The position numbers were made by a program, and so were the translations under genes. 64,000 nt of DNA from a virus, in IMG/VR virus record IMGVR_UViG_3300027833_000035, positions 1 to 64,000 of that record. The stretch is one strand, 5' to 3'. This document shows positions 26,975 through 49,106 of this stretch, piece after piece. The notes beneath the pieces are model-generated. The model searched no databases. It was given only the letters and a program-made list of their open reading frames with translations, and had not been told where the DNA came from. Position 1 is the first letter of the stretch. Every line of letters starts with the position of its first letter.

Positions 26975-27008
26975 TTGACAAATTTACTTCTATATGTTAT
27001 TATAAATA
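26975..27008 (+). promoter_or_regulatory. Overlapping sigma-70-type and late promoters of the plus-strand radical SAM operon
   Basis: TTGACA at 26975-26980 with TATTAT at 26998-27003 (17-bp spacer) forms a host-type promoter. TATAAATA at 27001-27008 on the plus strand adds a T4-type late promoter 26 bp before the cupin start at 27035. The TTAGAATCAA element of the early promoters is missing. Confidence 0.7.
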
Positions 27009-27034
27009 TATTAGTATATTATGATTGGAACACA

Positions 27035-28478: not shown

Positions 28479-29509
28479 TTATTAAGCCAACCGAGGCCTG
28501 TAACTTTAAATGTACCTTTTGTTCATCAACTGATATTGATGCTGACAAAGCTGGCTTACTTGATTTAGAATATGTTTATAAATTTCTAAAACGTTATCCT
28601 GACACCAATACTATTATTGTAAATGGTGGTGATCCATTAATGGTTGATCCAAAATGGTATTGGGATTTGATTGCTCACCTTGACGAACATGATTACCCTG
28701 CATCAATTAGTTTTACATCAAACCTCTGGCCATTCCTTATTAGACCAGAGAAATGGTTACCTTTATTTCAACACGAAAGATTTGGATGTACTACCTCATT
28801 TCAATATGGTGGTGGAAGATTAAAGGGTGATTACTCTGAGTTTACTGAAAAGGATTTTTGGCGAGTATCAGATGCTATGTTAAAACATACTGGCTCTCGA
28901 CCAGATTTTATTTCTGTAATCGTTGATGAAAACTTTGATGATGCTATTAAAAATGTAGAATTAGCGAAAGAGATGGGAGTCGAGTGCAAACTTAATTATG
29001 CAATGGCTTCTGGTGTTCAAGGCTCTACATTTAGGCTAAGTAAGATATATGAAACCTATATAAAGATATATGATATGGGTTTAGCTGAATACGAATATAA
29101 TACTAAACAAATGATGATAAGGTTAAATAAAAATAGTTGGACTACTTGTCCACAGAATAGACAATGCGATAGTGGTATACGCGCATTTAACCCAGGTGGT
29201 GATTACTATTCATGTGGTTCGTTTGCTGACGATTATGATTACCCTATTGATTTTGAGGAAGAAATGAATGGTGAAATGCAGACACCATTGCAGAATGATC
29301 CAAATATACAGACAATGAAATCAGCTTGCTATACTTGTCCGATGTTTGATATATGTAATGGTTGTAAAAAGACTGTGCGTGATATGAAACGCGAAGGTCA
29401 AGCTGAGGATCATTGTTATCATATGAAAAAACTAGCACCAAGAATACTTGAAATAAACGGCATGGACCCAGGATTGGCAACACCTTATGTTAATGAATCT
29501 ATCAATTAA
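28469..29509 (+). CDS. Radical SAM/SPASM enzyme B
   Basis: The 346-residue product starts MDLIIKPTEACNFKCTFC, giving cluster cysteines C11, C15 and C18. NGGDP (52-56) replaces the usual GGEP. The C-terminal third has many cysteines in a SPASM-like arrangement: CPQNRQC, GGDYYSCGSF, CYTCPMFDICNGC and a final DHC. It is thus a likely peptide/protein-modifying enzyme, although sequence differs clearly from enzyme A. GAAGGATAAAGG precedes the start codon, which overlaps enzyme A by 10 bp. It overlaps enzyme C by 23 bp at its 3' end. Function beyond the family level is not readable. Confidence 0.87.
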   Translation: MDLIIKPTEACNFKCTFCSSTDIDADKAGLLDLEYVYKFLKRYPDTNTIIVNGGDPLMVDPKWYWDLIAHLDEHDYPASISFTSNLWPFLIRPEKWLPLFQHERFGCTTSFQYGGGRLKGDYSEFTEKDFWRVSDAMLKHTGSRPDFISVIVDENFDDAIKNVELAKEMGVECKLNYAMASGVQGSTFRLSKIYETYIKIYDMGLAEYEYNTKQMMIRLNKNSWTTCPQNRQCDSGIRAFNPGGDYYSCGSFADDYDYPIDFEEEMNGEMQTPLQNDPNIQTMKSACYTCPMFDICNGCKKTVRDMKREGQAEDHCYHMKKLAPRILEINGMDPGLATPYVNESIN

Positions 29510-30401
29510 TCCAACATACTATTGTAACTTCGCTTGCGATTTCTGTTACTTAACAACAGAGCAGCTAAACGATAGACATAAAATTACTCCTTTATGGTTA
29601 GAGAATAGCCTACAACAAATTACTGACGAGGTTGGTCATGTTGATTTATATGGTGGAGAAATTGGTTTACTATCACCGGAGTATTATTATTCATTAAAGA
29701 AAGTAATACGTAATCATTACAAAGGCCCAATTAATATTAATACTAACTTGTCGGCATTCCCTGACTTTTTTAGAGATGAGGATGTAACGTTATCAGTATC
29801 ATATGATTTCCATGCCAGAGAAAAAGAGCAGCATGTTTTAAATAATATGATGAATGCCAACAAGGATTTATCTGTATTGATATTAGCCTCGCCAAAAGTG
29901 TTAGAGATGGATGTAGAGTTTATGATTTTTACACTTAATATGATTTCTAATGTTAAATCAGTTGAGATTAAACCATATTCAGTTAATCAGGCAAACCAAC
30001 ATAATGTAACTCATAAAGACTTTGAGGATTTCGTTATTAGGTTTGATGAAGCAAACACTGTAAAGAATTTTAATTTTCAAAACATTGATAACATATACGA
30101 TAGCATAGAAGGCAAGTATGACGCATTTAGTAATGACCATGTTTATATAACACCGCGTGGGAAATTTGGCGTCTTGGAATTCGATAAATACGACAGAGAG
30201 TACTTTAAAGAATACGACACTTACCATGAATATCAAACATGGGCACGTGAAGAACCTGAAAACAATTTGAGCGATATATGTAACGTATGTTCTTATTATG
30301 GGAAATGCTTAACAGAACATTATCGGTATGTACACGACTTAACCAATAGTTGTAATGGATATAAAGGGTTATTAGAATATTATGAAAGAATGGAAAGCTA
30401 G
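29487..30401 (+). CDS. Radical SAM enzyme C
   Basis: The product has about 302-304 residues (a second in-frame ATG at 29493 is equally possible). It shows NPTYYCNFACDFCYLTT, the CxxxCxxC radical SAM motif within the first 20 residues, and YGGEIGLLSP in place of GGEP. Its C-terminal region is shorter than in A and B, with CNVCSYYGKC and a final NSCNGYKG, a reduced twitch/SPASM-like cluster site. It may bind one auxiliary cluster. The gene overlaps enzyme B (23 bp) and the following unknown gene (20 bp). Divergence from A, B and D suggests a distinct step rather than a recent copy. Confidence 0.85.
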   Translation: MLMNLSINPTYYCNFACDFCYLTTEQLNDRHKITPLWLENSLQQITDEVGHVDLYGGEIGLLSPEYYYSLKKVIRNHYKGPININTNLSAFPDFFRDEDVTLSVSYDFHAREKEQHVLNNMMNANKDLSVLILASPKVLEMDVEFMIFTLNMISNVKSVEIKPYSVNQANQHNVTHKDFEDFVIRFDEANTVKNFNFQNIDNIYDSIEGKYDAFSNDHVYITPRGKFGVLEFDKYDREYFKEYDTYHEYQTWAREEPENNLSDICNVCSYYGKCLTEHYRYVHDLTNSCNGYKGLLEYYERMES

Positions 30402-30780
30402 ACAAAGCGCGTATCATTTAACAGCATCTTTATTTAAAGACGATTTAACTGATGTAGAAATTAATTGGCAGCCAGATAATATCGTTGAGGATGCACTAAC
30501 GCATTTCAGACAATATGTTGACGAATGGGTCTACCCTGCAAAATCGTATGTAGTTGCTATATGTTATGCCCATTGGTTAAATAGAGATTTTAAAGAACCA
30601 TTCTTTGATGCTCTTAATGACGAAGCCTTATTGTTTAATAATGATCCACACTTTGTTCCATATTGGGCAGACAAAGAAACATATGACGATATACTATTTA
30701 AATTAGACTTTAACGAAAAACTTGGTATGGTACCTGACATATACGAATATTATAAAGAGGAAATGTTATTTGGACTTTGA
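30382..30780 (+). CDS. Unknown 132-residue protein within the radical SAM operon
   Basis: The gene lies between radical SAM genes C and D, overlapping C by 20 bp. The product is acidic and aromatic-rich (MKEWKARQSAYHLTASLF, FRQYVDEWVYPAKSYVVAICYAHWLNRDF, EYYKEEMLF) and predicted helical. It lacks cysteine motifs for a cluster and has no signal peptide. RiPP systems often include a small partner that binds the precursor and guides it to the radical SAM enzyme (RRE-type). The position is suggestive, but I see no RRE fold signature. A precursor or partner role is inference only. Confidence 0.6.
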   Translation: MKEWKARQSAYHLTASLFKDDLTDVEINWQPDNIVEDALTHFRQYVDEWVYPAKSYVVAICYAHWLNRDFKEPFFDALNDEALLFNNDPHFVPYWADKETYDDILFKLDFNEKLGMVPDIYEYYKEEMLFGL

Positions 30781-31846
30781 AATAACAAAAACACTATTAG
30801 AATCTAAACGTCCGGATATAGCCGAGATTGAGTTGACTTTATTTGAAAACTGTCATCTTAATTGTTCGTTCTGTCATCACGATAAAAAATCTACCGTAGG
30901 TTTGAGTAGGGAAGAGATATTCTCTAAATTGGATTTAGTTGAACAACATGTCATTAAGATGAAAGGCAGAGTTGATATAATCCAAATCAATATGGTTGGC
31001 GGTGAGTTATTCCAAGATAGAATATCAGAATGGGCTTACCCTGTTTACTTTGATTTCCTTGTAGCAATCAAAAAGGTATTTGACGAACATAAGCAAAAGA
31101 TTAAAGTTGTGTGGGTAACATCGTTTCAATTTAGCAAACGTGAAAGAGTACAGAAACTACTCGACGACCTAAACGCTGAAGCAATCCCTTCATATATTAT
31201 ATGTTCATATGACTTTGACGGGCGACCAACAAAAGGTCCATACGCTAAAAATATAGAATACTTTGCTGACTATATCGTATCAATTAATATGGTTGCTACT
31301 ACTTTGTCAATCAAAAAGTTTATGGCAGACGATGATGAGTATTTCCATTACTTATATGAAAAGTTTGACGAATTCTATTTTGATGATTATATTCCAGATC
31401 GTGGATATGATTATATGATACCATCAGATAGTGAGTACCTCGAGTTTTTAAAATTCGTATACCATAACTATCCAGACATTAATCCTATTAAGGATCTCAT
31501 ATATAACGAGAGTAATCACATGCATTGCTTGGCTCTTAATAAGGTTACGATATTCCCAGATAACTCTACATCAAATTGCCGCTGGGATAGATACGATCAA
31601 CGAGATTTTAATACAGAATACAAACCTAAAGATAACGCCGGAATGATGCAAGCATATATGGATGAAAACGGTTGTCTATCTTGTCAGTGGTATAATAAGT
31701 GTGGATTTAGATGCTATACCCAATGGGATTGGAAAAACAGAGAACGCGATTTACCTGACTGCATAATGAGAATGTGGTTTAATTATATGGACAAAACAGG
31801 TCAAAATTTGATAACAGGATTTAATTATGATAAAGAAAAAACTTAA
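30770..31846 (+). CDS. Radical SAM/SPASM enzyme D (TTG start)
   Basis: I place the start at TTG 30770, where AGAGGAAA gives a good ribosome site, rather than the upstream in-frame ATG deep inside the previous gene. The 358-residue product then has LFENCHLNCSFCHH (C28, C32, C35), followed by NMVGGELFQD at the GGEP position. C-terminal SPASM-like cysteines are CLALNKVTIFPDNSTSNC, GCLSCQWYNKCGFRC and a final LPDC. It is the fourth distinct radical SAM enzyme in this operon and overlaps its neighbours on both sides. The substrate is unknown. The architecture suggests a peptide or protein. Confidence 0.85.
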   Translation: MDFEITKTLLESKRPDIAEIELTLFENCHLNCSFCHHDKKSTVGLSREEIFSKLDLVEQHVIKMKGRVDIIQINMVGGELFQDRISEWAYPVYFDFLVAIKKVFDEHKQKIKVVWVTSFQFSKRERVQKLLDDLNAEAIPSYIICSYDFDGRPTKGPYAKNIEYFADYIVSINMVATTLSIKKFMADDDEYFHYLYEKFDEFYFDDYIPDRGYDYMIPSDSEYLEFLKFVYHNYPDINPIKDLIYNESNHMHCLALNKVTIFPDNSTSNCRWDRYDQRDFNTEYKPKDNAGMMQAYMDENGCLSCQWYNKCGFRCYTQWDWKNRERDLPDCIMRMWFNYMDKTGQNLITGFNYDKEKT

Positions 31847-32546
31847 ACTTGATTTTTATACATCACACAAAACGCTTATAGAATTACAACCAATTCAATC
31901 TAGAACTAAACCACCATCATGGTGGAAGTCTATTAAGAATTCGTATAGCCAATTTAGGTCTAGGGCTGGTACTAAAGTTCCAACTCCAACGGTTAAAACT
32001 TGTCCTGGGATTGTTGATTATATTCGCAAACCTATTGTTCTTAAACTATGGTCGGATGGTATTTTTAAAGTAAAACCAAACGGTGATGTTGAATGTATTG
32101 AACCCTTACAAGGATCTGGCATACTTGATGGATCTCAACATGAACGTAGACAATTTGGTGATACATTATATCCAAACTGTACTGTATTTAAACTACATGG
32201 TCCATGGTCAGTTAAATCAAGTGAACGTAAAGAGTTTATGATTACTGAATGTCATTACACTGAAGATTTGCGTAAGCATGGTATTTTAATCTCACCTGGG
32301 ATTACAAACTTTTATGACCAACATACTTTAAACTGTTTTTTAGTATTTCCAATTAAAGACGAAGAATATACTGTAACGCTTAAATATGGTACACCTATTA
32401 TGTCAATATATCCAATGCACGAAATGGAACTTGATATTAAAATGCATGAGGTAGCTACACGTCAGGAATGGCAAGAAATACAAAACGTATTCCCATCAAC
32501 CTTTATCGGTCGTTATCACTCCCGGAAACACACACGCGGTAAGTGA
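31827..32546 (+). CDS. Unknown 239-residue protein closing the plus-strand operon
   Basis: The product starts with KLDFYTSHKTLIELQPIQSRTKPPSWWKSIKNSYSQFRS, a Trp/Pro-rich N-terminus. It is beta-rich afterwards, with KLWSDGIFKVKPNGDVECIE, KLHGPWSVKSSE, YDQHTLNCFLVFP and YTVTLKYGTPIMSIYPMHEMELDI. It has only a few cysteines and no radical SAM motif. It resembles uncharacterised marine phage proteins, but I cannot name a family. It overlaps radical SAM D by 20 bp, so it belongs to the operon and could be a substrate, a scaffold or an unrelated virion protein. Its last 51 bp overlap the last 51 bp of a minus-strand radical SAM gene. Confidence 0.65.
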   Translation: MIKKKLKLDFYTSHKTLIELQPIQSRTKPPSWWKSIKNSYSQFRSRAGTKVPTPTVKTCPGIVDYIRKPIVLKLWSDGIFKVKPNGDVECIEPLQGSGILDGSQHERRQFGDTLYPNCTVFKLHGPWSVKSSERKEFMITECHYTEDLRKHGILISPGITNFYDQHTLNCFLVFPIKDEEYTVTLKYGTPIMSIYPMHEMELDIKMHEVATRQEWQEIQNVFPSTFIGRYHSRKHTRGK

Positions 32547-33524
32547 ATGGTGTTCCATATAACTTAGTACACCTTTATCAATACATGTCATTAAATTTTT
32601 ACAATTGGCACAGTTATCAGATTTACTTGAATAAGCCAACTGTGACATGAACTTATTGTCTTTTACCTGAGTCCACGACTCAATATCATTTTCATCCTTG
32701 ACTACAAAATTATCTGTACCAATTAAAGCTATATCATATACGAATGGTGTCCAAAAGAAACGTTCGTTACAATAAGTATAATTTAATTCTAAAGAACCAC
32801 CTTGCGCTTGGTCAATAAATGTTTTAGGCATAAGATCGTCAGCAAAGTCATAGTTCTTCCATTTTTCAATAAGATGTTTTTGAACTTTAGATTTTGGCGC
32901 TCGGAAAAACGATGGATTTAAAGTAAGAATAGAATCAAACTGTTCTTCAACGAGTTTTGACATTTCGAGTACCTTATGGTTCTCAACATCATCATTACCC
33001 ATATTATATACCATATAATAATTTAAATCATCTGTCAACCCGTTTAATATATCTAATTTATATTTAAGTACATTCCAATTAACAGGTGGCTGCAACGCTA
33101 TATTACAATCATACATAAATCCATCAGCTTTTGGAATACTATTTAATAACTCAATAACATTATAATCAATCTTTTCCAATGTTGTAACGAATTGAATAGT
33201 AGTTACTTTACTTAAACACTCTCGGAATGTTTCATCTTTTAATAACTCTGTAATATTATTATTACCAAATAAATCAGTTGGACCAATATTAATGGTTGAC
33301 ACGCGGTACCCATTGGTATTAAATAAATCAATGGCATTATTTAATCTATCAAACGATCCCATATTTGAACCGAGTTTATTAACAAAACAACCTTTGCATT
33401 TAAACTCGCAGCCAGATAATACCTCACAATTAAACTGTACTTTGATTTCATGTCCTTCATTAAAGGATAAATCAAAATCCTTATCGGCTTGAGCAGCACG
33501 TTTATTATTAGTAACTATTCCCAT
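32496..33524 (-). CDS. Radical SAM enzyme E (GPTD subfamily)
   Basis: This is the last of five related minus-strand radical SAM genes. From the ATG at 33524 (GAGG ribosome site, 17-bp overlap with the upstream gene) the 342-residue product has LSGCEFKCKGCFVNK with cluster cysteines at 39, 43 and 46. TINIGPTDLFGNNN stands where GGEP normally lies. The C-terminal end has an auxiliary cluster set, CANCKNLMTC plus a later TACVFPG. FFWTPFVYD matches the LSPFxYE motif of its paralogues. It overlaps the opposite-strand unknown gene by 51 bp. Confidence 0.85.
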   Translation of the reverse strand: MGIVTNNKRAAQADKDFDLSFNEGHEIKVQFNCEVLSGCEFKCKGCFVNKLGSNMGSFDRLNNAIDLFNTNGYRVSTINIGPTDLFGNNNITELLKDETFRECLSKVTTIQFVTTLEKIDYNVIELLNSIPKADGFMYDCNIALQPPVNWNVLKYKLDILNGLTDDLNYYMVYNMGNDDVENHKVLEMSKLVEEQFDSILTLNPSFFRAPKSKVQKHLIEKWKNYDFADDLMPKTFIDQAQGGSLELNYTYCNERFFWTPFVYDIALIGTDNFVVKDENDIESWTQVKDNKFMSQLAYSSKSDNCANCKNLMTCIDKGVLSYMEHHSLTACVFPGVITTDKG

Positions 33525-34662
33525 GGTAAACCTCATCATCATATAAACCAATTACATCTTTATTTAAAATACATTCTTTTCTTCCATCAAATACGGTATC
33601 CATAATCATTGGAACCATTCTATTCACGCATATATTTAAATACTTACAATCGCCGCATTCTTTGCTTCCACTATTTTCAATCTGTTTAACAACGATTTCG
33701 TCTTTCTTTTTTAGAATATAATCAGTTATATCCGCGTCAGGCAGCATCAACCAACCATTATCAACTTTAAAATCATCTGTATGGATCTGAGCATTCTCAT
33801 ATATGAATGGAGACAAATACATATCACCGTGGTATATACTGACTACCGAATAATGAAATGCTTTATGTGATACATCACCTTGTAAGAAATGGAATTTGTT
33901 TTTAAACTTATGTGGATCTGCAGCCAACCGAGTTAGCATATCGTTCCATTCAAATAGTTTATTTCCATGTTTTGCACTATGATTAAAAGAACGTACTACT
34001 GATGGCAATACTTCAATAACAGTTTCATACCTACTCCTAACAAACTCAATGGCAGGGAATAGTATATCCTCTACACCTTGTACGATATTAGTAGCCATAC
34101 TTATTTCAAAGTTTAAAGAACTATTCTTAAACGTTTCAACTCTTTCGTCGAGTGCATCTAAGTATACTTGATCGTTCATTAATCTATTTAAATCCAAAGC
34201 GATTTGTACATCCCATGCTTCAACGACCTTACCCAGCGGTGAGTTTTCAATAGATTTTATCTTACCCTCAATATCCTTTTCAGATAATGATCCAAGTATA
34301 GAACAGTTATGTTGGATATTTCTATTATCCTCAGGCATCATTAATATAGCATCAGCAAGCCTTTGATTATTAATAATCTCTTCTAAATTTTGAGCACCAT
34401 AAAAGTCAGTAGGTCCGATTACAATATCGTCCAATACAACATCAGTTCTATCTTTTAATTCATACGCCAAGGAATGAAACGTTGCGATTGAGTTTGGGTT
34501 CCAATTACCTTTACGTTTAACAAAACAACCCGGACACATATATGAACAGCCTTCAAGTATTTCAAGGTTGACTTGTATTTTATATTCTTTCATATTGTCG
34601 ATTGAAGTAAATTCCTCACCACGTCCACCGTCTACAATATTTTTCCAATCATTATTTAACAT
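33508..34662 (-). CDS. Radical SAM enzyme F (GPTD subfamily)
   Basis: The 384-residue product has LEGCSYMCPGCFVKRKGN (C39, C43, C46) and IVIGPTDFYGAQN. The C-terminus has MYLSPFIYENAQI and auxiliary-cluster cysteines C336, C339 and C345 (CGDCKYLNIC) plus C364 (ECILNKD). Four of the five paralogues share the first-Cys position 39 when the best start codons are used, which supports the start choice. AAAGGA precedes the ATG. It overlaps its neighbours by 11-17 bp. The shared layout suggests recent duplication followed by specialisation, perhaps for different residues of one target. Confidence 0.87.
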   Translation of the reverse strand: MLNNDWKNIVDGGRGEEFTSIDNMKEYKIQVNLEILEGCSYMCPGCFVKRKGNWNPNSIATFHSLAYELKDRTDVVLDDIVIGPTDFYGAQNLEEIINNQRLADAILMMPEDNRNIQHNCSILGSLSEKDIEGKIKSIENSPLGKVVEAWDVQIALDLNRLMNDQVYLDALDERVETFKNSSLNFEISMATNIVQGVEDILFPAIEFVRSRYETVIEVLPSVVRSFNHSAKHGNKLFEWNDMLTRLAADPHKFKNKFHFLQGDVSHKAFHYSVVSIYHGDMYLSPFIYENAQIHTDDFKVDNGWLMLPDADITDYILKKKDEIVVKQIENSGSKECGDCKYLNICVNRMVPMIMDTVFDGRKECILNKDVIGLYDDEVYHGNSY

Positions 34663-35809
34663 ATGATATATCCTTTAAACGTTTTAGTTCTGGGTCGTCG
34701 TCATCAGTAACCAAAAACTTTTTACGATAACCATTCTTATCGTTTTCAACTGAATAGCCATCCCATTCATACATTGTTTGAGCAGGACCATTATAGTTGT
34801 TTATATTATTTAGCATATTCTCTTTAGGAGCAATGCAGCGATCTACTCCGAGGTAATCCCTTAACATTATTATTTTTCTATTATAACAACTAAAGAACAA
34901 CGGACAATCCTCACACTCAGTTCCTTTTGCTCTTTCAATTTGATGTTCAACCATTGGAACAACGTCATTAAAAGATTTTACTTTAAACATATCATCGTAT
35001 ATAGCCATGTTCTCATACATGAATGGACTTAAATACCATTCACCACGTTTATAGTTTAACACAGTGTAATTAATACCTGCATGAGAATGGTCTACCATAA
35101 TATTGTTTAGCTTTGACTCTTGGTGCCATGTGCTAAAGTATTCATTAAACTCATCGAGTGTCTTTAAGATTATGTTTGCTTTATGAGAACGAGATACTGA
35201 CGGAATAAAATCCAATATAGTATCAAAACGTTTTACTGCTTGATCGTGTAATGCTTCATAATCTAATCCATAATCTTTAATATTAACAACAAACGTATAA
35301 GTAACCTCATGCATAATATGTTTATCTATATAAGCTAACATATCTGATATATGTTTCGTGTATTCATCAGTAAAGAATTTATGTGGATTTGTAGCGATAC
35401 CAATTTCTATTTCAGTATCGAGGTTAATGTTATCCATAAGAAAATTACAGAACTTTTTAATATCACCATCAATAAGAGTTGACACAAAAGCTAGGATAGG
35501 AGAGTTTTCATTAATAATATCTACGAGTTCTGGCATTACTTCATAGAAATTTTCTGATGCCAAAAAGTCTGTTGGACCGATTAATATTTCATCAACAAGT
35601 ATTCCTTGGTCAGTAATCGAACGTATAAACTCTTTTGCCATAAATATTTGGCTTTTATCGCTAGCGTTCCCCCGTCTATGTACAAAGCACCCAGGGCACT
35701 TGTGGTGACAACCGTCTAGTATATCCATTTGAATTTTGACGGCACTGACGGGCTTAGTTTGGGTCTCTGTGGTCATCTCATAATAGAGATTATTTTTAAT
35801 CAGAGGCAT
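34652..35809 (-). CDS. Radical SAM enzyme G (GPTD subfamily)
   Basis: The 385-residue product has LDGCHHKCPGCFVHRRGN (C34, C38, C41) and ILIGPTDFLASEN, then EWYLSPFMYENMAIY. The auxiliary cluster is CEDCPLFFSC followed by DRCIAPKE. An extra C-terminal tail of about 60 residues (TMYEWDGYSVENDKNGYRKKFLVTDDDDPELKRLK) sets it apart from the paralogues. AAGGAATATAT precedes the start codon. It overlaps the upstream gene H by 14 bp and gene F by 11 bp. Confidence 0.87.
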   Translation of the reverse strand: MPLIKNNLYYEMTTETQTKPVSAVKIQMDILDGCHHKCPGCFVHRRGNASDKSQIFMAKEFIRSITDQGILVDEILIGPTDFLASENFYEVMPELVDIINENSPILAFVSTLIDGDIKKFCNFLMDNINLDTEIEIGIATNPHKFFTDEYTKHISDMLAYIDKHIMHEVTYTFVVNIKDYGLDYEALHDQAVKRFDTILDFIPSVSRSHKANIILKTLDEFNEYFSTWHQESKLNNIMVDHSHAGINYTVLNYKRGEWYLSPFMYENMAIYDDMFKVKSFNDVVPMVEHQIERAKGTECEDCPLFFSCYNRKIIMLRDYLGVDRCIAPKENMLNNINNYNGPAQTMYEWDGYSVENDKNGYRKKFLVTDDDDPELKRLKDISYVK

Positions 35810-36818
35810 ACATATATTCCTTCAATGCGACGCAGTTATCTAATCCTCGCGACTCCATATATAAATGTATATTACGTTCAGCACAGCTCATCATATATTT
35901 GCAGCCATTACAATCATCAACCTGTTGAGCATATTCAATATTATCATATAAAGTATTTGCATCCATCGTTGTTTCAAAATTTGGAGTTCTTTGAATAATA
36001 ACATCATATAAGAATGGATTTAAATATAGTTTATTATTATAAAAGCTATAGTTTTGGCAGCCATATCCATTAAACTTTGCATCAAAGAATGTATAAAGAT
36101 TAAGCCATTTTTTATCAATGTTTTGCTCAACCATTTCGCGTCTAAAGTTTGCTAGGTGCTGTTCCACCTTACCGCGTGCATTCCTATCTGTTAGAAACGA
36201 CGGCGTAATTATAACTGGTGCATTATAATCATCAAATATTCGTTGACATAAATCATTATAGCCGATACGTTTAAATACATCTTTATGGTAATTAACTCTA
36301 AATTGAACTGAACCTAATTCAAACATTTTGAGTTTACGGTTCCAATCGTCTAGTTCTCCATCAAGGTACTTATCTATATCTAAAACGATTTTAAAATCAA
36401 TATCAGGTACTCTGTGAATGCCTTCGTATAAACTCCAAATCTTATCGAGCTTATCCTTTATTTCAGCATATGGTTGAAGTAACGTTGATGTAAATCCAAC
36501 TGCCGATATTTCATAAAGCTTTTTCATATATGGATGGTTCATAATCTCGTAGAAGTTCTCTGCGTCAAAAATGTCAGTAGGACCAACCGTTATTTCGTCA
36601 GGATAATAAGAACCATTAATTAAAAGATTATAAAGCGTTTCTAAATTATCAGCCTTAGTAAGGTTCTTACGTGGAATAAAACAACCTGGGCACGACTGAG
36701 CGCAGCCATGTAATATGTCTAAGTTTATTTCAGTACGTAAAAAGTCTGTATTAATAGGGCTTTTATTTTCATCATACGTATAGTAACCTGCGTATGTTTT
36801 ATTCAGTTTCACTGTCAT
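35796..36818 (-). CDS. Radical SAM enzyme H (GPTD subfamily)
   Basis: From the ATG at 36818 (GAGG in the preceding gene as ribosome site) the 340-residue product has LHGCAQSCPGCFIPRKN with cysteines 39, 43 and 46. ITVGPTDIFDAEN follows, then LYLNPFLYDVII, CNGCKYMMSC and DNCVALKEYM. A longer in-frame start exists at 36905 but would put the cluster cysteines 29 residues further in than in the paralogues and lies inside the upstream gene. The gene overlaps the unknown 278-residue gene by 20 bp and gene G by 14 bp. Confidence 0.85.
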   Translation of the reverse strand: MTVKLNKTYAGYYTYDENKSPINTDFLRTEINLDILHGCAQSCPGCFIPRKNLTKADNLETLYNLLINGSYYPDEITVGPTDIFDAENFYEIMNHPYMKKLYEISAVGFTSTLLQPYAEIKDKLDKIWSLYEGIHRVPDIDFKIVLDIDKYLDGELDDWNRKLKMFELGSVQFRVNYHKDVFKRIGYNDLCQRIFDDYNAPVIITPSFLTDRNARGKVEQHLANFRREMVEQNIDKKWLNLYTFFDAKFNGYGCQNYSFYNNKLYLNPFLYDVIIQRTPNFETTMDANTLYDNIEYAQQVDDCNGCKYMMSCAERNIHLYMESRGLDNCVALKEYMYASD

Positions 36819-37635
36819 TAGTATTGGCCTCGGCTTCCGATTGAATATCAGCTTTAATGTCAGCCTCGATTTCCTCTTCAGTTTTTGGTTTTGGAATATC
36901 AACACTAATAATAAATCCAGGAGGCATCATTGATAAAATGTTATTTGTAATATTAGCTTGTGTCAATACATAAAACAAATCTTTACCAAAGTATGCTGGC
37001 TTATCGTTATACATTTGTTTATTATATTGCATTTTAAATCCAAGCATAGAACAAACTAATAGGAAACCATCCCAACCGTCAGTAAGGAGACGCGCAACGT
37101 TTGGACCACACACTGTTGGTTTATCAACTACTGTAATTTGGTCAACTGCGTCTTTTACTTCAATTTCAATTGCTTTGTTTTCATCTGATAAATTTTCGTG
37201 GAATTTACAGATTACGAATGGAATAAGTTCAGCCATGTTATTACAAACTTCATCAATCAAATCAATATGTTTATCAACAAAATCGTGTAACTGATCTTTA
37301 CTAAATATGTCAAGTAATTGCTGTTCTAAACCATTAAACTCATATCTATATCTAGCTTTAATAGCCATCACAACAAACCGTGATAGGAAAGGGCTATCAA
37401 TAATAAAGTCTGATTTAATATATTCCAACAACAAGTCTTCATCGACTTGAGCAAAAGTTGTTTTAAAGTTAGTGTTTGCTAAATAAATTAGAATATGTTT
37501 AGCTGACAGCTTTTCTTTAGATGCCAAATAATCTACCCATAAAACAAAATCTTCATCTTCTTCTTTTACCTTATAGATCTCAACTAAATTCTGAGGTGCT
37601 AATGGTAAAGTATATATATTTTTTTCTTCACTCAT
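36799..37635 (-). CDS. Unknown 278-residue acidic protein in the minus-strand radical SAM operon
   Basis: The product is helical and acidic, with no cluster cysteines or transmembrane segments. Notable stretches are IYTLPLAPQNLVEIYKVKEEDEDFVLWVDYLASKEKLS, SPFLSRFVVMAIKARYRYEF and a strongly acidic C-terminus (TEEEIEADIKADIQSEAEANTNDSETE). It lies between radical SAM genes H and I. A CATAAATA sequence (7/8 late consensus) 28 bp upstream could give extra transcription. Candidate roles are a precursor-binding partner, a scaffold for the enzymes or a virion component. None is shown by the sequence. Confidence 0.65.
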   Translation of the reverse strand: MSEEKNIYTLPLAPQNLVEIYKVKEEDEDFVLWVDYLASKEKLSAKHILIYLANTNFKTTFAQVDEDLLLEYIKSDFIIDSPFLSRFVVMAIKARYRYEFNGLEQQLLDIFSKDQLHDFVDKHIDLIDEVCNNMAELIPFVICKFHENLSDENKAIEIEVKDAVDQITVVDKPTVCGPNVARLLTDGWDGFLLVCSMLGFKMQYNKQMYNDKPAYFGKDLFYVLTQANITNNILSMMPPGFIISVDIPKPKTEEEIEADIKADIQSEAEANTNDSETE

Positions 37636-37650
37636 AATAAAATCACTTTC

Positions 37651-38754
37651 TTATATCAATGGGTATTTATGAATTAAATATGGTATTCTGTTTTGGCGTT
37701 TTGAAAAGAACTGAACATCTGTATTGATTAACGCTAAGTCTTCTCTAATATTATCTGTGTTAAAGTTTCTTTCTAAAACCTTTTTAACGATAGGGAACAC
37801 ATTATTGATTTCAGTATATAGATCCATGTATTCCCAACCATCCGCTGTAGTATCAGCTTTGTTTTGGTGAACCGCAATAAAATCAGCATCGTCTTTAACT
37901 TTATTCCATAACTCTTCTAATAAGTAAAACGCAAGTGTGTAGTTAGATTTATTAGCAGCATTTACATATACATCTTTAAAGAATTGTTTTTTGTCTGTAG
38001 CCCAATCATTCGCGTCAGTTGCATTGGCATTCATATAATCAATGACTGACATAATGTATGCTGAATAGTGACGACGTGAAGTAAAGTGTTCCATAACATC
38101 TCTTGCCATAACTGGTGAATGGATAGTAAACTTCTCAACGATTAATTCTGAAATCGGTGTACATGGATAAAAATCATTTAAGAAGAACAATAAGTCATAA
38201 CTAAAGTTTTTACCATTTTGATATGTAATTACCCAAGGTGTTTCGCCTTCAGCATTTAATAAAGTATTCGTGTGGTTTCTAACATCGTTATAAACTGTTG
38301 AGTCACTCATTAATGATAATACTAAATCTTGGTTAATCACTGCTTCCATATAATGGGCAGTCATAGAATTAATTGTTGTTGCATCGGCATCAGGGTAGAA
38401 ACCAGAGGCTGTTAATAATCCAGCGGTATATTTAGCAAATACTTTAATCATATCCTCTTCGTCTGTAAACATAAGGATACGTTTATCACTGTTTTGAATA
38501 TAGTCAGCATTAGCAACGTCTTCCCATTGCTCAAAATCCAATAGTGAAGCAGCATTAGAACGTGCGTTATTTGCCAACAATTCGTATTCAGCAGGCTGAA
38601 GGAATGCATCTTCAATATCAGGATGAACGATTGTAATTCTTCTTGGCTCAGCAGTATGATAAAAAGAATTTAATTCACCAATTACTGTTTCAACGTTTTG
38701 CGTATTTGTAATATACTTTTTATTATTTAAGTAATATAAACTCTGTCCAATCAT
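37651..38754 (-). CDS. Unknown 367-residue protein in the minus-strand radical SAM operon
   Basis: I use ATG 38754, whose ATGA overlaps the stop of radical SAM gene I and which has an AGGAG ribosome site. The product begins MIGQSLYYLNNKKYITNTQNV and is mostly helical, with PRRITIVHPDIEDAFLQPAEYELL, FTSRRHYSAYIMSVIDYMN and AFYLLEELWNKVKDDADF. It has no recognisable catalytic motif and almost no cysteine, so it is not a radical SAM enzyme. Its strict coupling to gene I suggests that the two proteins work together. A partner that presents the CHxS tail is a reasonable but unproven guess. Confidence 0.65.
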   Translation of the reverse strand: MIGQSLYYLNNKKYITNTQNVETVIGELNSFYHTAEPRRITIVHPDIEDAFLQPAEYELLANNARSNAASLLDFEQWEDVANADYIQNSDKRILMFTDEEDMIKVFAKYTAGLLTASGFYPDADATTINSMTAHYMEAVINQDLVLSLMSDSTVYNDVRNHTNTLLNAEGETPWVITYQNGKNFSYDLLFFLNDFYPCTPISELIVEKFTIHSPVMARDVMEHFTSRRHYSAYIMSVIDYMNANATDANDWATDKKQFFKDVYVNAANKSNYTLAFYLLEELWNKVKDDADFIAVHQNKADTTADGWEYMDLYTEINNVFPIVKKVLERNFNTDNIREDLALINTDVQFFSKRQNRIPYLIHKYPLI

Positions 38755-39926
38755 AATTTTGCTCCTAATTTTTCTATTGCGTCGTCGTTCCAAGTGAAAT
38801 CGTATGGATTATATTCAGCAAGAACATCTTTGTTCAATACACAGCCATTAACATTTAATGATTCTTGGGCTTCAAAGATCAGTCTACTTGCGCAGGCAAC
38901 TGCGAATTTACAGTCAGCACAGTCTTTTACTTTACTCGACTTATTTATACCTTTTGTTACTAATTCATTTTTACGATCTAATATTTCTTCGAATGTTAAA
39001 CCAGTAACATCTAAATTTTTATTACCTAAGAAAAACGCTTGTTCATGTAGCATTACATTTAGGTGTGTGGTTGGACCATTTTCTCCTGGAACAATTGTAA
39101 GTCCAACAAAGTTAATTGAGTTACAATAAAGATTAGCCATTGACATAACAGTTTCTTGTGCGTTATCTTTATCAATAACTCTACCAAGGAAATCGTTCCA
39201 TCCAAACAAATTCTTTCTTTGAACCAATTGTGAGTTTGCCCTAGAAAAAGCAGGGTTCATTTCTACGATTGTTTCATATTCATTTACAGATTTTTGGATA
39301 ATCTTATTGTATGTTTCTTTATCAATCTTTTTGCCAACAACGTTAGAAGCCTGAAGTGTCCACGACCAATCCATTTGTTTTGGCGTATTGTTTTTAAAGA
39401 ACTCTACCTTTTCCATAACGTTATCAAAGTATTCATCATCATTTAACATCTGCTCTACTCTGCCGATTGGCATAATAAATTCGATAATCATTTCGCGGCG
39501 ATACTTATCTTCATCGTCAAGTACAGCAAAGATTTCTTTTACTTTATCCATAGTTGCTAAATCAAATTTAGCAGGTGCCGCGATACGAGCTCCGGTATGT
39601 TCTCTCATAATCTCTTGGACTACTGAGTTATTTAATACTGACTCTGTATTCTTGGCAGTGAAAAAGTCTGTTGGTCCAATAACGAATTCTCTTAGGTTAA
39701 GGCCAGTTCTTTTTACACCATCGGCAAGTTCTTTTGCTCTATCAATAATTTGTTGGTTCATAGCAGGGTCAATGTTTTTATCAACGAAACAACCTAGGCA
39801 GCCGTGATTACATCCAGCCAAAACTTCCATTTGAATTAAAACATCAAACTTAGTAGCATCCGAAGGTGTTAGACTTTCTGGTCCTGAGTACCTCATTTGC
39901 TTACAATATGATTTTTGCATTGACAT
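38751..39926 (-). CDS. Radical SAM enzyme I (GPTD subfamily), first after the CHxS proteins
   Basis: The ATG at 39926 is 1 bp after the stop of the second CHxS gene, and its ribosome site (AGAGGAAGAAG) is the coding sequence for the RGRR tail of that gene. The 391-residue product has LAGCNHGCLGCFVDK (C39, C43, C46), FVIGPTDFFTAKN at 82-92, and auxiliary-cluster cysteines C336, C339, C345 (CADCKFAVAC) and C362. Its LSPFxYE-like region reads HLNVMLHEQAFF, more diverged than in the other four. Its position makes it the first candidate to act on the CHxS tails. Confidence 0.88.
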   Translation of the reverse strand: MSMQKSYCKQMRYSGPESLTPSDATKFDVLIQMEVLAGCNHGCLGCFVDKNIDPAMNQQIIDRAKELADGVKRTGLNLREFVIGPTDFFTAKNTESVLNNSVVQEIMREHTGARIAAPAKFDLATMDKVKEIFAVLDDEDKYRREMIIEFIMPIGRVEQMLNDDEYFDNVMEKVEFFKNNTPKQMDWSWTLQASNVVGKKIDKETYNKIIQKSVNEYETIVEMNPAFSRANSQLVQRKNLFGWNDFLGRVIDKDNAQETVMSMANLYCNSINFVGLTIVPGENGPTTHLNVMLHEQAFFLGNKNLDVTGLTFEEILDRKNELVTKGINKSSKVKDCADCKFAVACASRLIFEAQESLNVNGCVLNKDVLAEYNPYDFTWNDDAIEKLGAKL

Positions 39927-39927
39927 G

Positions 39928-40308
39928 TTATCTTCTTCCTCTCGAACTGTGACAACTACTATGGCAGCTGGCATGACAGTAATAAGCATTGATTGTTCGG
40001 TTACTCATTCTGCCTTCTATTAAGTCGACTGTTCTTCTAGTTAAATCTTCTAATGTATCAACAATATCTTGTGCGTAAATTATCTGACCTGAATTAATGC
40101 CACCATCTACATAGTTATTATATACATAATAGTTTGCATTCACAAATTCAAATCTATGATAATGCCATTGGCCTGTGGTATAACTTGTAACACCTGTACC
40201 ATTAACATATGCGTTAACATAAATTCCAACATTTCTATCAAACGTTCTTAATTGTTGTCCACCATACGTCATTACATACGAATTAACGTCACCTCTATCC
40301 ATAGTCAT
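39928..40308 (-). CDS. CHxS-tail protein 2 (candidate radical SAM substrate)
   Basis: The 126-residue protein is a tandem paralogue of the upstream gene. Residues 1-108 look like a small beta-rich domain (QLRTFDRNVGIYVNAYV, TSYTTGQWHYHRFEFVNANYYVYNNYVDGG). The C-terminus reads YCHASCHSSCHSSRGRR: three C-H-x-S repeats and a basic tail. It has no signal peptide. The start codon overlaps the upstream stop (TAATG), and the radical SAM gene I starts 1 bp after its stop. The tail could be the modified segment of a RiPP-like substrate. Alternatives are a metal-binding tail or a fibre-tip protein that is not modified. Confidence 0.8.
   Translation of the reverse strand: MTMDRGDVNSYVMTYGGQQLRTFDRNVGIYVNAYVNGTGVTSYTTGQWHYHRFEFVNANYYVYNNYVDGGINSGQIIYAQDIVDTLEDLTRRTVDLIEGRMSNRTINAYYCHASCHSSCHSSRGRR
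39931..39981 (-). other. CHxS repeat tail, copy 2
   Basis: Coding segment for YCHASCHSSCHSSRGRR, the last 17 residues of CHxS protein 2. It has three Cys-His-x-Ser units, and each contains a His-x-Ser triplet. Confidence 0.85.
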
Positions 40309-40688
40309 TAGCGGCGACCTCGCGAGCTATGACACGATGAGTGACAACTTGAATGGCAGTAATATGCGTTAATAGTTCTATTTGATAATCTTCCTTCAAC
40401 CAAATCAACAGTCCTCCGTACGACGTTACGAATTGAATCAATAACATTACCTGAACGAATAATTCCGCCGGTGTATATACCACTAGACATATACCCATTA
40501 TAATAAGAATATGAAGCGTTTACAAACTCGAACCGTGTATAATGCCATTGGCCTGTGGTATAACTGTATCGTCCACCGTTTGCATATACATAAGCATTAA
40601 TATAAAACCCAACGGTCTTATCAAAGGTTCGTAATTGTCGACCACATTGAGTCTGTAAACTACTATTTAACTGTGCATAACTTGGCAT
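40308..40688 (-). CDS. CHxS-tail protein 1 (candidate radical SAM substrate)
   Basis: The 126-residue protein begins PSYAQLNSSLQTQCGRQLRTFDKTVGFYINAYVY and shares the TTGQWHY-RFEFVNA core and LSNRTINAYY hinge with its paralogue. It ends CHSSCHSSCHSSRGRR. The gene starts 1 bp after the stop of the giant tail-fibre gene, a position where T-even phages encode fibre-tip adhesins or chaperones. The C-terminal tail is encoded with very different codons from its paralogue despite near-identical residues. It has no cluster motif of its own. Function as a virion tip protein with a modified tail is inference. Confidence 0.8.
   Translation of the reverse strand: MPSYAQLNSSLQTQCGRQLRTFDKTVGFYINAYVYANGGRYSYTTGQWHYTRFEFVNASYSYYNGYMSSGIYTGGIIRSGNVIDSIRNVVRRTVDLVEGRLSNRTINAYYCHSSCHSSCHSSRGRR
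40311..40361 (-). other. CHxS repeat tail, copy 1
   Basis: Coding segment for YCHSSCHSSCHSSRGRR in CHxS protein 1. It differs from copy 2 by one residue, while most synonymous positions have changed. Confidence 0.85.
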
Positions 40689-40689
40689 A

Positions 40690-43600
40690 CTATACTTTAA
40701 CCTCTACTTCACCATTTTCACTATCACTTATCGCGATACCAATTATTTCATAGCTATTTATACCCGGAGTACCATAGTCAACTCCCTTAGCTTTACCATC
40801 ACCAGCAGGGATTACCCATTGGCCTTTCTTAACATCTTCACTTACTAAACATGGGATCCGACCTTTAAGAGCAATGAACGGATTCATTAATGCTTTTGTA
40901 GAAGTAGATCCAGGCTCAATTCCCATGTCGTTCATTTGAACAGCAGGGTTTGTTGATATGACACCAGCAAGAGGCATGCCCGGTTCCCATTTAGTAACTT
41001 CTGAGTCACCTTCAATGTTAATACCCATAACAGTAGCATTTTCATATACAGCATCTGCAGAATATCTCTCTGCAAGGTCAGCCCATCTTGCTGACGTAGC
41101 TGTACCAACATATAAACCACCATTATCAATATACGATCTATCAGAACCATTTTGTCTAAACTGACAAATACGGTTTGAGTTACCACCAGAAGTAATATAG
41201 AAACGGTTTGAGTGGTATTCAATTTTACCAACATCGTTTCCTGGGTTACCTGTCCAAGATTCGTTACCAGATTCTTCAAATCTAATACATGGTGAATAAC
41301 CATCTTGGTGTCGTGTTCTTAACTGCCATTGACCCGCAGCATTCAAATCGCCTGACCATGTTCTGTCACCATACATCCAACGACACATTGTACCGTTATA
41401 TGTTGCTCTAAGTTGTAGAGACATAGACGAAGAGTTATTGTTACCAGTGATAGCATAATACTGACCTTGGTAAGAATAAGCGTGTACACCGGTTTGCTGG
41501 TTGTAAATACCCTCACGTTGACCGTCGTTACGGAACCAATTACGAGCATATATTTCATTGGCACGAACATAATCATTGAAGTTAGAACCTGATGATGGAT
41601 TACAATAATAACCAGTATTATCTCTGTCGTAGAAGATTGGCGCACGGAATGAGGATGATGCATAAGAGTTGCCATCACACATTGCTTGGAAGTACCAACC
41701 TGAAATACTATCAGTAGCATTACCGTGCATCCCAACATAGAAACCTGTTGACCCTGTAGTGTTATTATTATTTGAGTCAAGGTTAAAGAATATGTCGTGG
41801 TATGAGTTAAATCGTAAATCGTCTGATACACCTCCACCACTGTCTCTGGAAGATATAGAGTGATAAGTACTGTCGTTACCATAGAATGTAATAAAGTCAC
41901 CACGATCTCTTGCGTTTAACTGATCCCATTCAATCGTACTCATTTGCGAAGTAGATGCTGGGTTTGTATAACGATTTGTATCGTTTGAGTCGTAGAAGAT
42001 TGGAGCTCTTAATGAACTACCAGCTTGTAATGAGTTATTTACATAAACGTCGTTAGCACCAAGTGGATCAGAACCGTTATTGATTGACATGACCTGAGTA
42101 TTCATTGTATAGTCATCGTAGAAACGCATACCATTATAACTAGCATTTGCACCCATCTTAATACCAGTGTGGAAAGCAATTCTTAGATCCGGGTATGGGT
42201 AAGTCCAACCACCACCTTCACGATAGATAGCGTAAGCAGTTGATTCATTACTTCCAAAGTACAAACCAAATTGGTCATTTTGTGAAACATCATCTTTGTG
42301 TACAAATCTATTTGCTCTAATGTCGCCAGCAAAATTGTTATCACCGGCTGGATTTAAAAAGTATGCAGAGTTGTTACGATCGTAATAAGTATTGGCATAT
42401 ATATCACCATATACTTCAGTTGTACCACTTCGAGTTCTTAGTGCCCAGCTACCAGATTGATTAAGGAAACCAATATCATTTGAGTTGTTTGCATATACAT
42501 AGCCTCGAATAGTACTTCCATTATCATCTCTAAATCGTATACCATTAGCAGAGCCACCGCCTGCAACGTTCCAATAGTCATCGTTGTCTGAATAGAAATG
42601 CTGACCTGTTGCAGTGTTATATAAACCACGACCATTTGTATCGTTACGGAACCAACCATCGTTATAAACTTCTGAACGAATATCAAGTGTATGCATTACT
42701 GATGTTGAAGCAAAGTCACCGTAATAACCTGTACTGTCACGGTCATAATATCGTCCAGAGTAAGTTCCACCTGTTACGAATATGTTACCATCACCACGAA
42801 CAAGAAGATTTGTTGTACCTGATAAGCCGCCATCTCTAAACGCAATGTCTTCACCGCCTGATGTAGCAATAATTAAGTGAGCATCATTAGTATCAGTAGC
42901 TTGGATATAACCACGAACATTGCCAGCATTTGTAATAAACTGAGCTTCACCACCGTCAGCAAACTGAATAACATCTACTTTTGATGTACTTGATGGATCG
43001 ACGTAGAAAGATGTATCGTCTGAGTCAACTAATCTACTTGCATAGAAGTATGAACTTGTACCGCCGCCTGGGTTTGCGTTATAGATAGCAATATCAGAAT
43101 AAGAAGAATAGGCTGTACCTGAGTTCCATGACTGTTGCCATAGACGCATACCACGACCAGACTTTTTAAACATCAATAAGTTATCTGAACCGCCAGAAGA
43201 GTCTGTGTAAGATCTTAAGTGTAAGTAATCGGCATATGGTGCAGTGTTATTATTGTTCCAAGATGTGAAACCAAACGTTAATCGACCTGCAGTATCTTCG
43301 TTAGGTTCAATAATACGGTTATCTTTGCGTAATAATGATCCTGCATAACCATTAACATTACCTTGGATTACGTTATCAACTTGTAATGTTAATAGTCTCG
43401 AAGTACCATTACCGTCAATTTTGTATGCAGTATTGTCACTGTCATACCAAATTGGTGAACGTAACTGATTAACACCTAGGAAGAAACCATCTTTAGTAGA
43501 CGCTTGTTCTTCACCATTATAATAAAGTTCAACATCGCCATTTTGACGGAAGATTTGTGCCCATTCGTCGTTAGTATCATTAAAGATACCAGCAACGCCA

Positions 43601-46600
43601 GCTCCACTTGACATGAATACCCAGTCATCGTTAATAGCATAACCTGCATAACCACCTTTATTACCAGTTACACTGATTGAGCCATATGTACCAGTAGTTG
43701 CATCTAATTGATATGTTGCTCCACCAAACTGAACAGCGTTTGCACGAAGAATATTTGTAAGAGATGTTGAGGCTGGATCTAAGTAATAAGCGTTATCGTC
43801 TGAGTCATAGAACCTGCTTGCATAAGAACCGTTAAGCGCTGTATGCGTACCCGATACAACAACATTACGAGACATTGCCCAGTCACCGTTAGCATCAGTC
43901 CAGTTACTATCTGTAACAAATCTTAGTCTGTCTGGGTTAGTACCCTCTGCCATTCTAAGCATTTGAGTTCCACCAGCAACCAACTGCATATCGTCAGCAC
44001 CAATAAATCTGATATATGTATCAGTATCGCCATTATGTCTAATATATTCGTTAGCACGTATTTCGTTAAATACAGATGTTGAAGCCGGATCAGCATAGTA
44101 AGCTGAGTTGTTAGAGTCATAGAACCGTTGAGCATATGAATAACGTCCAGCCCAAACATCACCGTCAGACTCGACACGTAAACGATATACACCATTACCA
44201 GCACCAGTTGTGAATTGTAAATTACCGCCTACGTTAGTTGCGAAGTCATTTGGTGACTCATAAATTTGCCATAGGTTTCCGCCGTTCCATGCTAGACCTT
44301 CAGATGGTCCTGGATCGTTGAATGTTAATTTGTTTACGTTATTAATATTACCGTTTGTCCAATCCCAGTTACCTCCGACTTTAGATGGACCTTTTGGTTC
44401 AATGTAATAGTTAGTGTCGTTAAGGTCTCTAAACCTACCAGCATCAATAATATTTGCTGAGATGTTATCTGCAGAAATATCACCAGTAACAGTAAGATCG
44501 TTACCGATTGTGGCATCGTTAACAATAGTTAATCCTGCAGCTTTTAAGCTTGATTGAGCATCAGTTCTTTTTAGAATTGGTGGACCAAACTCACGTGTTG
44601 CACCATTTGGAGCATAATTCATTAATGAGATTAATCTAACAAAACGAACGCCTTCACCATCTGAACCATTATATGGTGTGTGAGTTGTTGGTACAACGTG
44701 TTCACCTGAATATTGAGTCCAGCCTGTGGCGGTATGATTGATAGCAGATGCCGCAAAGTATGAAATACCATCATTAGTAGCAATTGGATTTTTGTTTTTA
44801 TCGTATCGTCTAACACCTAAGTAGAATAAACCGCCAGTACCACTAATGCGTCGAACAGCTTGTTCTGCGTAAATTGTTTCGCCAGGTTCTACAGGAATAA
44901 AATCAGAGTCAAAGCTTCTATAACCATTTGATCTTAATGCGTAACTTGATGCGAATGGACCGTCACCGTTTAAAACATATTCACCGGTACTAGTTGTTGC
45001 ATTATTTTCAACACCCTGCATTGGTTGAATAACACGTTTATCCCAGTAGTCTGAAGCATCAAACATTTTGAGATCAGCAAGGCCGGCGCCATATGATTTA
45101 AGTAATCCAAGGTTCTCATTACCACCGTTAAGAGCAAGAGATCCAAATATACCAGCGCCATAAGCTTGTATATCACCATTTTCTGAGAACCAAAAACGTT
45201 CACCAATATTATTAAACGAAATACCCATCGCAGAACGAGAGTTTCTTGTTTTATGGAATATAGATGGGAAGTTAGCATCAGCAGCTGTATTTTGTAAAAC
45301 AATTAAACGTTGTTGAGTAGACTTAACCTCTAATGGATAAGTTGTATTATTAAAGATTGCGCTATCACCAGCTTTAACTGATTTAAGTCTGGATTGACCA
45401 GCAAGATCGGCATAGAATGCAGAGTTATCTAAATCATAGAATATTGGAGAACGCATACTGTTTGGAGCAGAACCATAACCATTTTCAGCACCAATTTGAT
45501 GAATGTTATTAGAATATAATCTTGTGAAGTTATTTCTGTTAGCAACCAATGACCATTCGTTATCTGTTTCGTTATACAGACCCATCTCTGTAGCACCACT
45601 GGATATAAAGCCCCAGTCATTACTAATCATATAACCTGCATAGCCATCTCTTTCGCCTTCAACCATGATAGTCCCTTTAGGACCTGATGGTGAGTCGATA
45701 GTTAGGGAACTGCCGTCCATTTGGATTTGATTTGTTCGAACAACATTTAAAATAGATGTTGAAGCAGGATCTAAATAATAAGCATTATTGCCTGAGTCAT
45801 AATAACGTGGAGCATAAACATCAAGGTTAAAATCAGCAGAGTTATCATCAATGTTTAATCTCTCTGTATTATTGATAAACAATTTATAAATGCCAGCTGC
45901 AGAGAAACCAAAGTATGTATCTGCATCACCGTTATGTCTAATGTAATCGTCAATGTCAATTCTATTCATTACTGATGTACCAGCAAAGTCACCATAGTAT
46001 GCGTTATTATTATAATCGTAATAAGTAGGGAAGTATGCCATGTCATTGGCATCAGCAGCTGATATGCCGCCATTGAAATTCACTCTCTTATTGAATAAGA
46101 ATAAAGCTCTATCAGTATCAAATTGTGCTGAACCAGCAACCTTAGATCCAATATCTAAATAACCAGTTGGTGTTGTGAACCTATGAGCATTACTTGTATT
46201 TGGTTCAAACTTAAAAGTTCCACCAGCATCAGAGAATATTGGGGATCGCATATCTGTAGCAGCTTCTGCATATGTTGTATATACATCAAGCTGCGCGGTT
46301 CCGCCGGCAGTAAATATAATTTGGTCAGCGCCAAATCCAATTTTAGTATTAGTATCACCGTCGTGTATAATTTCACCGACGAGACTTATGTTATTCATTC
46401 GCGATGTACTAGCAAAGTCACCGTAATATAAAACATCATTTGCATCTAGGTACTGAGCGAATGAAGCATTACCTGTTGACGTAAGTGTTTTATTATTTCT
46501 AACTCTAAGATTGTTGGCATCGTTCATGTAGAAACCGCCGCCTTGACCAAAGCCAAGTTCATCCATTCTTAGGAATGTAGCAGTTCCATTACCAACAACA

Positions 46601-49068: not shown

Positions 49069-49106
49069 TCGGTTCACTCTCCCCAGTTAGGCTTTATTCT
49101 TAAATC

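Follow-up and report, generated by a model that had tools for sequence, protein, structure and literature searches.

Small phage proteins with a conserved Cys-His tail encoded together with fibre and radical SAM genes

The CHxS genes behind a giant fibre gene

The DNA analysed here, referred to as the window, comprises positions 1-64,000 of the 72,895-base IMG/VR virus record IMGVR_UViG_3300027833_000035, the head and tail genes of which are T4-like. On the minus strand of the window, a giant fibre gene (40690..49077) encodes a protein of 2795 amino acids (aa), which has a tail fiber PHROG match and carries at its C-terminus an ADLAERY...GVIST.PA..MN...ALKGR domain that also lies upstream of CHxS genes in most relatives. 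The fibre gene is followed on the same strand by two small genes, CHxS1 (40308..40688) and CHxS2 (39928..40308), each encoding 126 aa, and then by a gene of the radical S-adenosylmethionine (SAM) type, radical SAM E (38751..39926), with the cluster motif GCNHGCLGC. CHxS1 ends in YCHSSCHSSCHSSRGRR and CHxS2 in YCHASCHSSCHSSRGRR, each directly before the stop; both tails (40311..40358 and 39931..39978, respectively) consist of three CHxS repeats followed by RGRR.

The first-pass annotation, in which radical SAM E was called radical SAM I, had claimed that these four genes abut at 0-1 bp and that the ribosome site of the radical SAM gene is formed by the RGRR codons of CHxS2. Both statements agree with the minus-strand sequence. 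The TAG stop of the fibre gene is separated by 1 base from the CHxS1 ATG at 40688; the end of CHxS1, CGC TAATG, has 1 base in common with CHxS2; and CHxS2 ends with AGAGGAAGAAGA-TAA-C-ATG, leaving a 1-base gap before radical SAM E. Here AGAGGAAGAAGA represents the CHxS2 codons for RGRR (AGA GGA AGA AGA; 39931-39942), which double as the purine-rich, Shine-Dalgarno (SD)-like stretch of radical SAM E. The true start of the latter is 39926 (MSMQKS...); the list of open reading frames extends it to 39989 solely via an in-frame upstream ATG.

The tight spacing at the CHxS genes is ordinary, because the following junctions in the same run, down to 32496, are equally tight or overlapping (-4, +15, -26, -14, -11 and -35); in the same-strand run as listed, junctions one and two have 1-base overlaps as well. 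The coupling of CHxS to the next gene is a conserved habit, since of 155 distinct CHxS tails, 148 have the next ATG no more than 25 bases past the stop and 87 show a 1-base TAATG or TGATG overlap with the next gene; in 134 of the 148, the tail codons contain an SD-like word. RGRR is conserved as protein and not for the SD alone, because it is kept where CGN codons give no ribosome site; the RGRR codons of CHxS1 (CGA GGT CGC CGC) form no SD. AGA/AGG usage is 77% in the tail versus 65% in the protein body, a moderate difference. No RNA element was found by an Rfam search.

Conservation of the tail and its gene linkage

Viral contigs were searched with the DNA pattern CHxSCHxSRGRR-stop, and at least 120 stretches matched. 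Among the matches listed, the tail stood at the extreme C-terminus of an in-frame protein at 117 loci (151 proteins), the printed tails had three repeats although the pattern asked for two, and at least one radical SAM gene was found in the available DNA at 106 of the 117 loci. The 16-residue tail CHxSCHxSCHxSRGRR occurs in more than 100 viral contigs, and the CHxS proteins form one single-linkage family of about 120-310 aa. Four pattern matches without an in-frame tail (L129, L136, L138 and L133; three from Streptococcus mitis and one proteobacterial) were discarded as chance.

For a tail-independent sample, a radical SAM A profile, in which the tail has no part, was run against viral contigs. 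Five of the resulting 80 loci end within 250 bases, and a CHxS gene was found downstream of radical SAM A at all of the remaining 75; the expression used for CHxS detection demanded three CH pairs plus R.RR, and every locus with room passed. None of the six Cys/His residues varies in this sample, nor do the Arg residues at -4, -2 and -1; S, N or A stands at the fourth position of repeats two and three, and G, S or A at the Gly position. The mean identity of 59 distinct CHxS sequences is 85% in the tail and about 37% in the remainder.

The CHxS pair of the window has no Pfam match and no informative PHROG match. Tail included, phrog_35144 was matched with E-values of 2.8e-5 and 4.7e-5 by the window pair, 2.4e-124 by gp72 of phage FLC6 and 1.3e-6 by gp170 of phage Atu_ph07. 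PHROGs 35144, 20767, 31457 and 20737 are listed with function unknown, and phrog_1802 merely as 'radical SAM'. A match to the bacteriocin-precursor family TIGR04065 (E 0.027) was below the cut-off and was judged compositional.

Two layouts recur among the CHxS loci. The common one reads fibre, cupin, radical SAM A, CHxS, F3, F6, radical SAM B, 2-oxoglutarate (2OG) oxygenases, radical SAM C and radical SAM D. In the window layout, one strand carries fibre, CHxS, CHxS, radical SAM E, F9, F3 and further radical SAMs, and the opposite strand carries cupin, A, C, D, F14, B and F29. Upstream DNA of 4.5 kb or more was available at 69 radical SAM A loci, and 64 of these have the fibre C-terminal domain (DLAE motif) upstream on the same strand, as against 0 of 56 downstream windows taken as the control; at the radical SAM A loci, the fibre stop lies a median of 504 bases from the radical SAM motif. 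At some CHxS loci the fibres differ or lie far off. At two loci of the common layout (L032 and L047), a pair of CHxS genes lies in tandem, the products of which (about 250-310 aa) have diverged strongly; CHxS duplication is therefore not confined to the window type.

In a collection of cultured phages (50,697 records), a radical SAM A homologue (E<=1e-10) was detected in only six, all of them jumbo phages: Burkholderia phages FLC6, FLC8 and S13, Pseudomonas phage pPa_SNUABM_DT01, Agrobacterium phage Atu_ph07 and Sinorhizobium phage Phosso. All six have a CHxS gene, which lies directly downstream of radical SAM A in each of the four regions that were read at base level; the tails are CHSSCHTSCHGSRGRR, CHTSCHTSCHSARGRR, CHSSCHASCHNSRSRR and CHTSCHASCHSSRSRR. 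The CHxS proteins of the cultured phages are annotated as hypothetical. Searches of the cultured phages by tblastn with full-length CHxS1 and with the tail alone gave no useful match, perhaps owing to low-complexity masking, and the members were found instead through the F3 and radical SAM A proteins. Phage S13 depends on the flagellum and shows cross-species activity (PMC11898562).

The CHxS/radical SAM module was also found amid ordinary chromosomal genes in metagenome-assembled genomes of the Bdellovibrionota type (Bacteriovorax/Bdellovibrio-type). The bacterial loci are L135 (PAMZ01000003.1, from a Halobacteriovoraceae genome), L139 (JAUHVL010000003.1), L137, L132 and L311-L313. Two long bacterial contigs (382 and 228 kb) contain CHxS, F3 and radical SAM A-D, and an S74 fibre-chaperone domain is encoded at a distance from CHxS of about 3 kb in the first and 9 kb in the second; the two genomes have no more than three and two S74 domains, respectively. 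Of the S74 neighbour proteins, one is pilin-like, with a prepilin N-methylation motif. In Bdellovibrio bacteriovorus, the S74 trimeric adhesins of the MAT fibres serve in prey recognition (PMC10769870). The two predator-type genomes resemble that system in having the module beside an S74-domain fibre protein, and differ from it in that the neighbour in one of them starts with the pilin-like motif and that CHxS is not in the described MAT family. This independent, bacterial context speaks for a role in contacting other cells.

Other module genes, predicted structures and virion proteins

Beyond radical SAM E, the minus strand of the window carries F9 (367 aa; 37651..38754), which is conserved as the second gene past CHxS, and F3 (278 aa; 36799..37635), a conserved partner of which one family member matches phrog_20767; neither has an assigned function. 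They are followed by radical SAM F (35796..36824, start approximate; GCAQSCPGC), G (34652..35809; GCHHKCPGC), H (33508..34662; GCSYMCPGC) and I (32496..33542, start approximate; GCEFKCKGC), the last being distinct from the gene so named in the first-pass annotation. The plus strand carries a cupin-like module protein (26975..27499; phrog_8014), radical SAM/SPASM A (27450..28478; KTTETCNLNCAHCFTSG), which is the most constant enzyme of the module, radical SAM C (28469..29509; KPTEACNFKCTFCSST), radical SAM D (29487..30401; NPTYYCNFACDFCYLT), the module gene F14 (30382..30780; phrog_20737), radical SAM B (30722..31846, start approximate; LFENCHLNCSFCHHDK) and the module gene F29 (31827..32546; phrog_7084). 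F29 and F14 accompany the radical SAM block in many phages. A further protein of about 570 aa with CxxxCxxC, probably a B12-binding radical SAM (FAM15), is often found in the module (L312:8569-10281, L070, L011 and others), and on one phage contig (L023) seven related pantothenate synthetase-like genes (FAM18) lie upstream of radical SAM A and CHxS.

The CxxxCxxC cluster motif is present in nine window proteins, radical SAM A-I, of which A-D give consistent and E-I weak radical-SAM profile matches. In radical SAM A, the SPASM-type cysteines 243, 246, 262, 302, 305, 311, 315 and 325 (window numbering) are invariant among 16 sequences, and the TIGR04085 (SPASM) score is 28.8 bits in FLC6, against a cut-off of 27, and 25.7 in the window. 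The profiles nearest to radical SAM A are those of the peptide maturases DarE, DynA, PapB, CteB and anSME. The module enzymes thus resemble SPASM peptide maturases, yet always remain far under the cut-offs of the named families.

The AlphaFold2 model of CHxS1 (mean pLDDT 83.8, pTM 0.67) predicts a helix at 4-19, strands at 22-34 and 43-55, a helix at 79-100 and an unstructured tail of low confidence, i.e. a folded body with an exposed disordered tail. The model of F3 is confident (92.5); fold searches with it gave no clear match, and its first part gave weak SuiB/CteB rows.

The virion proteins of Atu_ph07 are reported by Attai et al. (PMC6102473) to be encoded mostly in coding sequences (CDS) 31-76, 170-215 and 284-329. 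According to NC_042013, against which the numbering was compared, gp170 is the CHxS protein and gp215 the major head protein, so that the CHxS gene (CDS 170) forms the edge of a virion-protein-rich cluster. This position is an indirect hint, compatible with the presence of CHxS in the virion.

Function of the CHxS proteins

It is very probable that a dedicated system of several radical SAMs, linked to recognition fibres, acts on the CHxS proteins, with the tail as its substrate, because the linkage to radical SAM A holds at 75 of 75 loci, the tail is invariant in its key residues, the fibre lies upstream at 64 of 69 loci, and copies occur in cultured phages and bacteria. That they are associated with the fibre we consider probable, and their action in adsorption is slightly favoured. 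Taken as a whole, fibre-associated proteins whose tail is modified by a dedicated enzyme system represent the best and a reasonably likely explanation. We infer that the tail is a substrate and that CHxS is located in the virion and at the fibre tip; the exact chemistry and the receptor role of the tail are speculative.

A possible mechanism would be as follows. CHxS1 and CHxS2 would be small fibre-associated proteins, probably in the tip or the receptor-contacting end, with a variable body that docks on, or forms, the end of the fibre. Their C-terminal tail would be the substrate of a post-translational modification system encoded around CHxS, which in the window phage may comprise radical SAM A-D and E-I, cupin/2OG-oxygenase partners and the putative helpers F3 and F6/F9. 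RGRR and the invariant Cys/His residues would probably serve as recognition element and reaction site alike, and the Cys/His residues would most likely be cross-linked or otherwise modified prior to assembly, so that the tip used for attachment to the target cell becomes rigid, reactive or metal-binding. The candidate chemistries are Cys/His cross-links (thioether or other), a hydroxylation carried out by the 2OG enzymes, and a metal site. Such a combination of variable bodies with an unvarying chemical end would be suited to a universal contact (metal, redox or covalent), and the specificity would come from fibre and body.

Several observations weigh against this explanation. The first-pass annotation had suggested that the CHxS proteins may be adhesins whose tails are altered to change receptor binding, on the ground that in T-even phages an adhesin often occupies the slot after the fibre gene. 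As shown above, the conserved link of CHxS to the fibre gene and the radical SAMs speaks for that proposal, whereas the physical coupling stressed in it reflects ordinary operon compaction, and the positional argument is not general: in the commonest order, cupin and radical SAM occupy the slot and CHxS is not directly behind the fibre. The target of the enzymes could be another protein, the fibre included. The three Atu_ph07 clusters are each exactly 46 CDS long, and the edge at 170 may represent a fixed window. The predicted CHxS1 fold gave no convincing match to an adhesin or other structure in PDB and BFVD (none at E <= 0.001 by Foldseek; best VIA Z 3.1), and hhalign aligned the phage fibre C-terminus with the bacterial neighbour protein at a probability of 4% (E 0.01).

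If CHxS were a precursor resembling ribosomally synthesized and post-translationally modified peptides (RiPPs), the tail would be modified, cut and released as an antibacterial, signal or cofactor, and the fibre would be a mere neighbour. The module enzymes are indeed nearest to RiPP maturases, and the Cys-rich repeats are like those of SCIFF, ranthipeptide or HXS precursors; however, the tail is C-terminal on a folded, itself conserved body of 120-300 aa, no obvious recurrent peptidase or exporter family was seen by eye among the 45 largest neighbour families, the fibre association holds in phages and bacteria, and the module is carried by lytic jumbo phages. We regard such a precursor as unlikely. 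The HXS system (HxsA with His-Xaa-Ser repeats, the radical SAM pair HxsB/HxsC and HxsD; TIGR03976-TIGR03979) likewise has short His/Ser repeats beside several radical SAMs, but the CHxS repeats number three in each tail seen, are followed by RGRR and stand on phage or fibre-linked proteins. The NCBIfam models of HxsA/HxsD (TIGR03979/TIGR03976) matched neither the window pair at E 0.1 nor three cultured-phage members at E 0.01, and the scores of radical SAM A against HxsB (33.8 bits; cut-off 370) and of radical SAM C against HxsC (23.3; cut-off 267.9) are low. The SPASM RiPP maturases acting with Cys-repeat precursors (SCIFF/CteB, PapB ranthipeptides, DarE/DynA and CefB, with Cys at every fifth position) share CxxxCxxC and SPASM cysteines with radical SAM A and are nearest to it by profile, whereas the module enzymes fall below the family cut-offs, would have as substrate a tail at the C-terminus of a large folded protein, and are encoded together in numbers from several to nine.

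The position of CHxS near the fibre would also fit a fibre-assembly chaperone outside the virion, the modified tail of which aids fibre folding or trimerisation; the T4 gene 38 product is such a chaperone, and T2 gp38 is an adhesin. Like gp38, CHxS in the window order is a small gene directly past the distal fibre gene, but it has no family or fold match, gp38 has no enzyme set, and in most CHxS phages a cupin follows the fibre. Against a chaperone, the tail is constant on highly divergent bodies, as many as nine radical SAMs would be odd, and the Atu_ph07 hint favours the virion, making this reading, if anything, a little less probable than a RiPP-like precursor. T4 long-fibre tips bind iron via HxH motifs, and six invariant Cys/His residues at fixed spacing could bind heme or a metal (Fe, Cu, Zn) once the fibre is mature while the radical SAMs modify another target, e.g. 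the fibre shaft; radical SAM A is, however, linked to CHxS at every tested locus, whereas fibres vary or are distant in some, and we give this possibility slightly less weight again. Ordinary operon packing with unrelated auxiliary metabolic radical SAM genes would account for the equally tight junctions elsewhere in the run, but is highly improbable, as the gene set and tail recur in more than 100 diverse phages and in bacteria, and is already contradicted by the linkage at 75 of 75 loci.

No described CHxS system was found in literature searches, the coverage of which excluded preprints and most subscription journals. In the host-recognition cluster of pelagimyophages (PMC7029224), radical SAM cassettes lie inside a tail-fibre island, as in the CHxS module; the passages found contain no description of the CHxS protein or its tail and do not treat the gene set as one system. 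The CHxS module is an undescribed system made of known enzyme types. It is directly testable, because it is present in the cultured phages S13, FLC6/8, DT01, Atu_ph07 and Phosso.

More tentatively, and with rather less than even confidence, we propose that the fibre-associated CHxS proteins mark an undescribed class of recognition fibre in tailed phages, which predatory bacteria would have either acquired or donated; the tip of such a fibre would bear a universal three-repeat Cys-His group that is matured by radical-SAM and oxygenase enzymes acting together and makes a contact, covalent, redox or metal-bearing, with the surface of the target cell. The occurrence of the module in more than 100 other phages and a few predatory-type bacteria suggests a widespread way to alter chemically the part of the fibre that touches the target cell. 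Radical-SAM enzymes are regarded as puzzling 'auxiliary' genes of marine and jumbo phages; a dedicated maturation of fibre proteins, if true, would explain a large set of them, add a layer of protein chemistry to phage-host recognition, link phage fibres to those of predatory bacteria and provide a family of new peptide-modifying enzymes.

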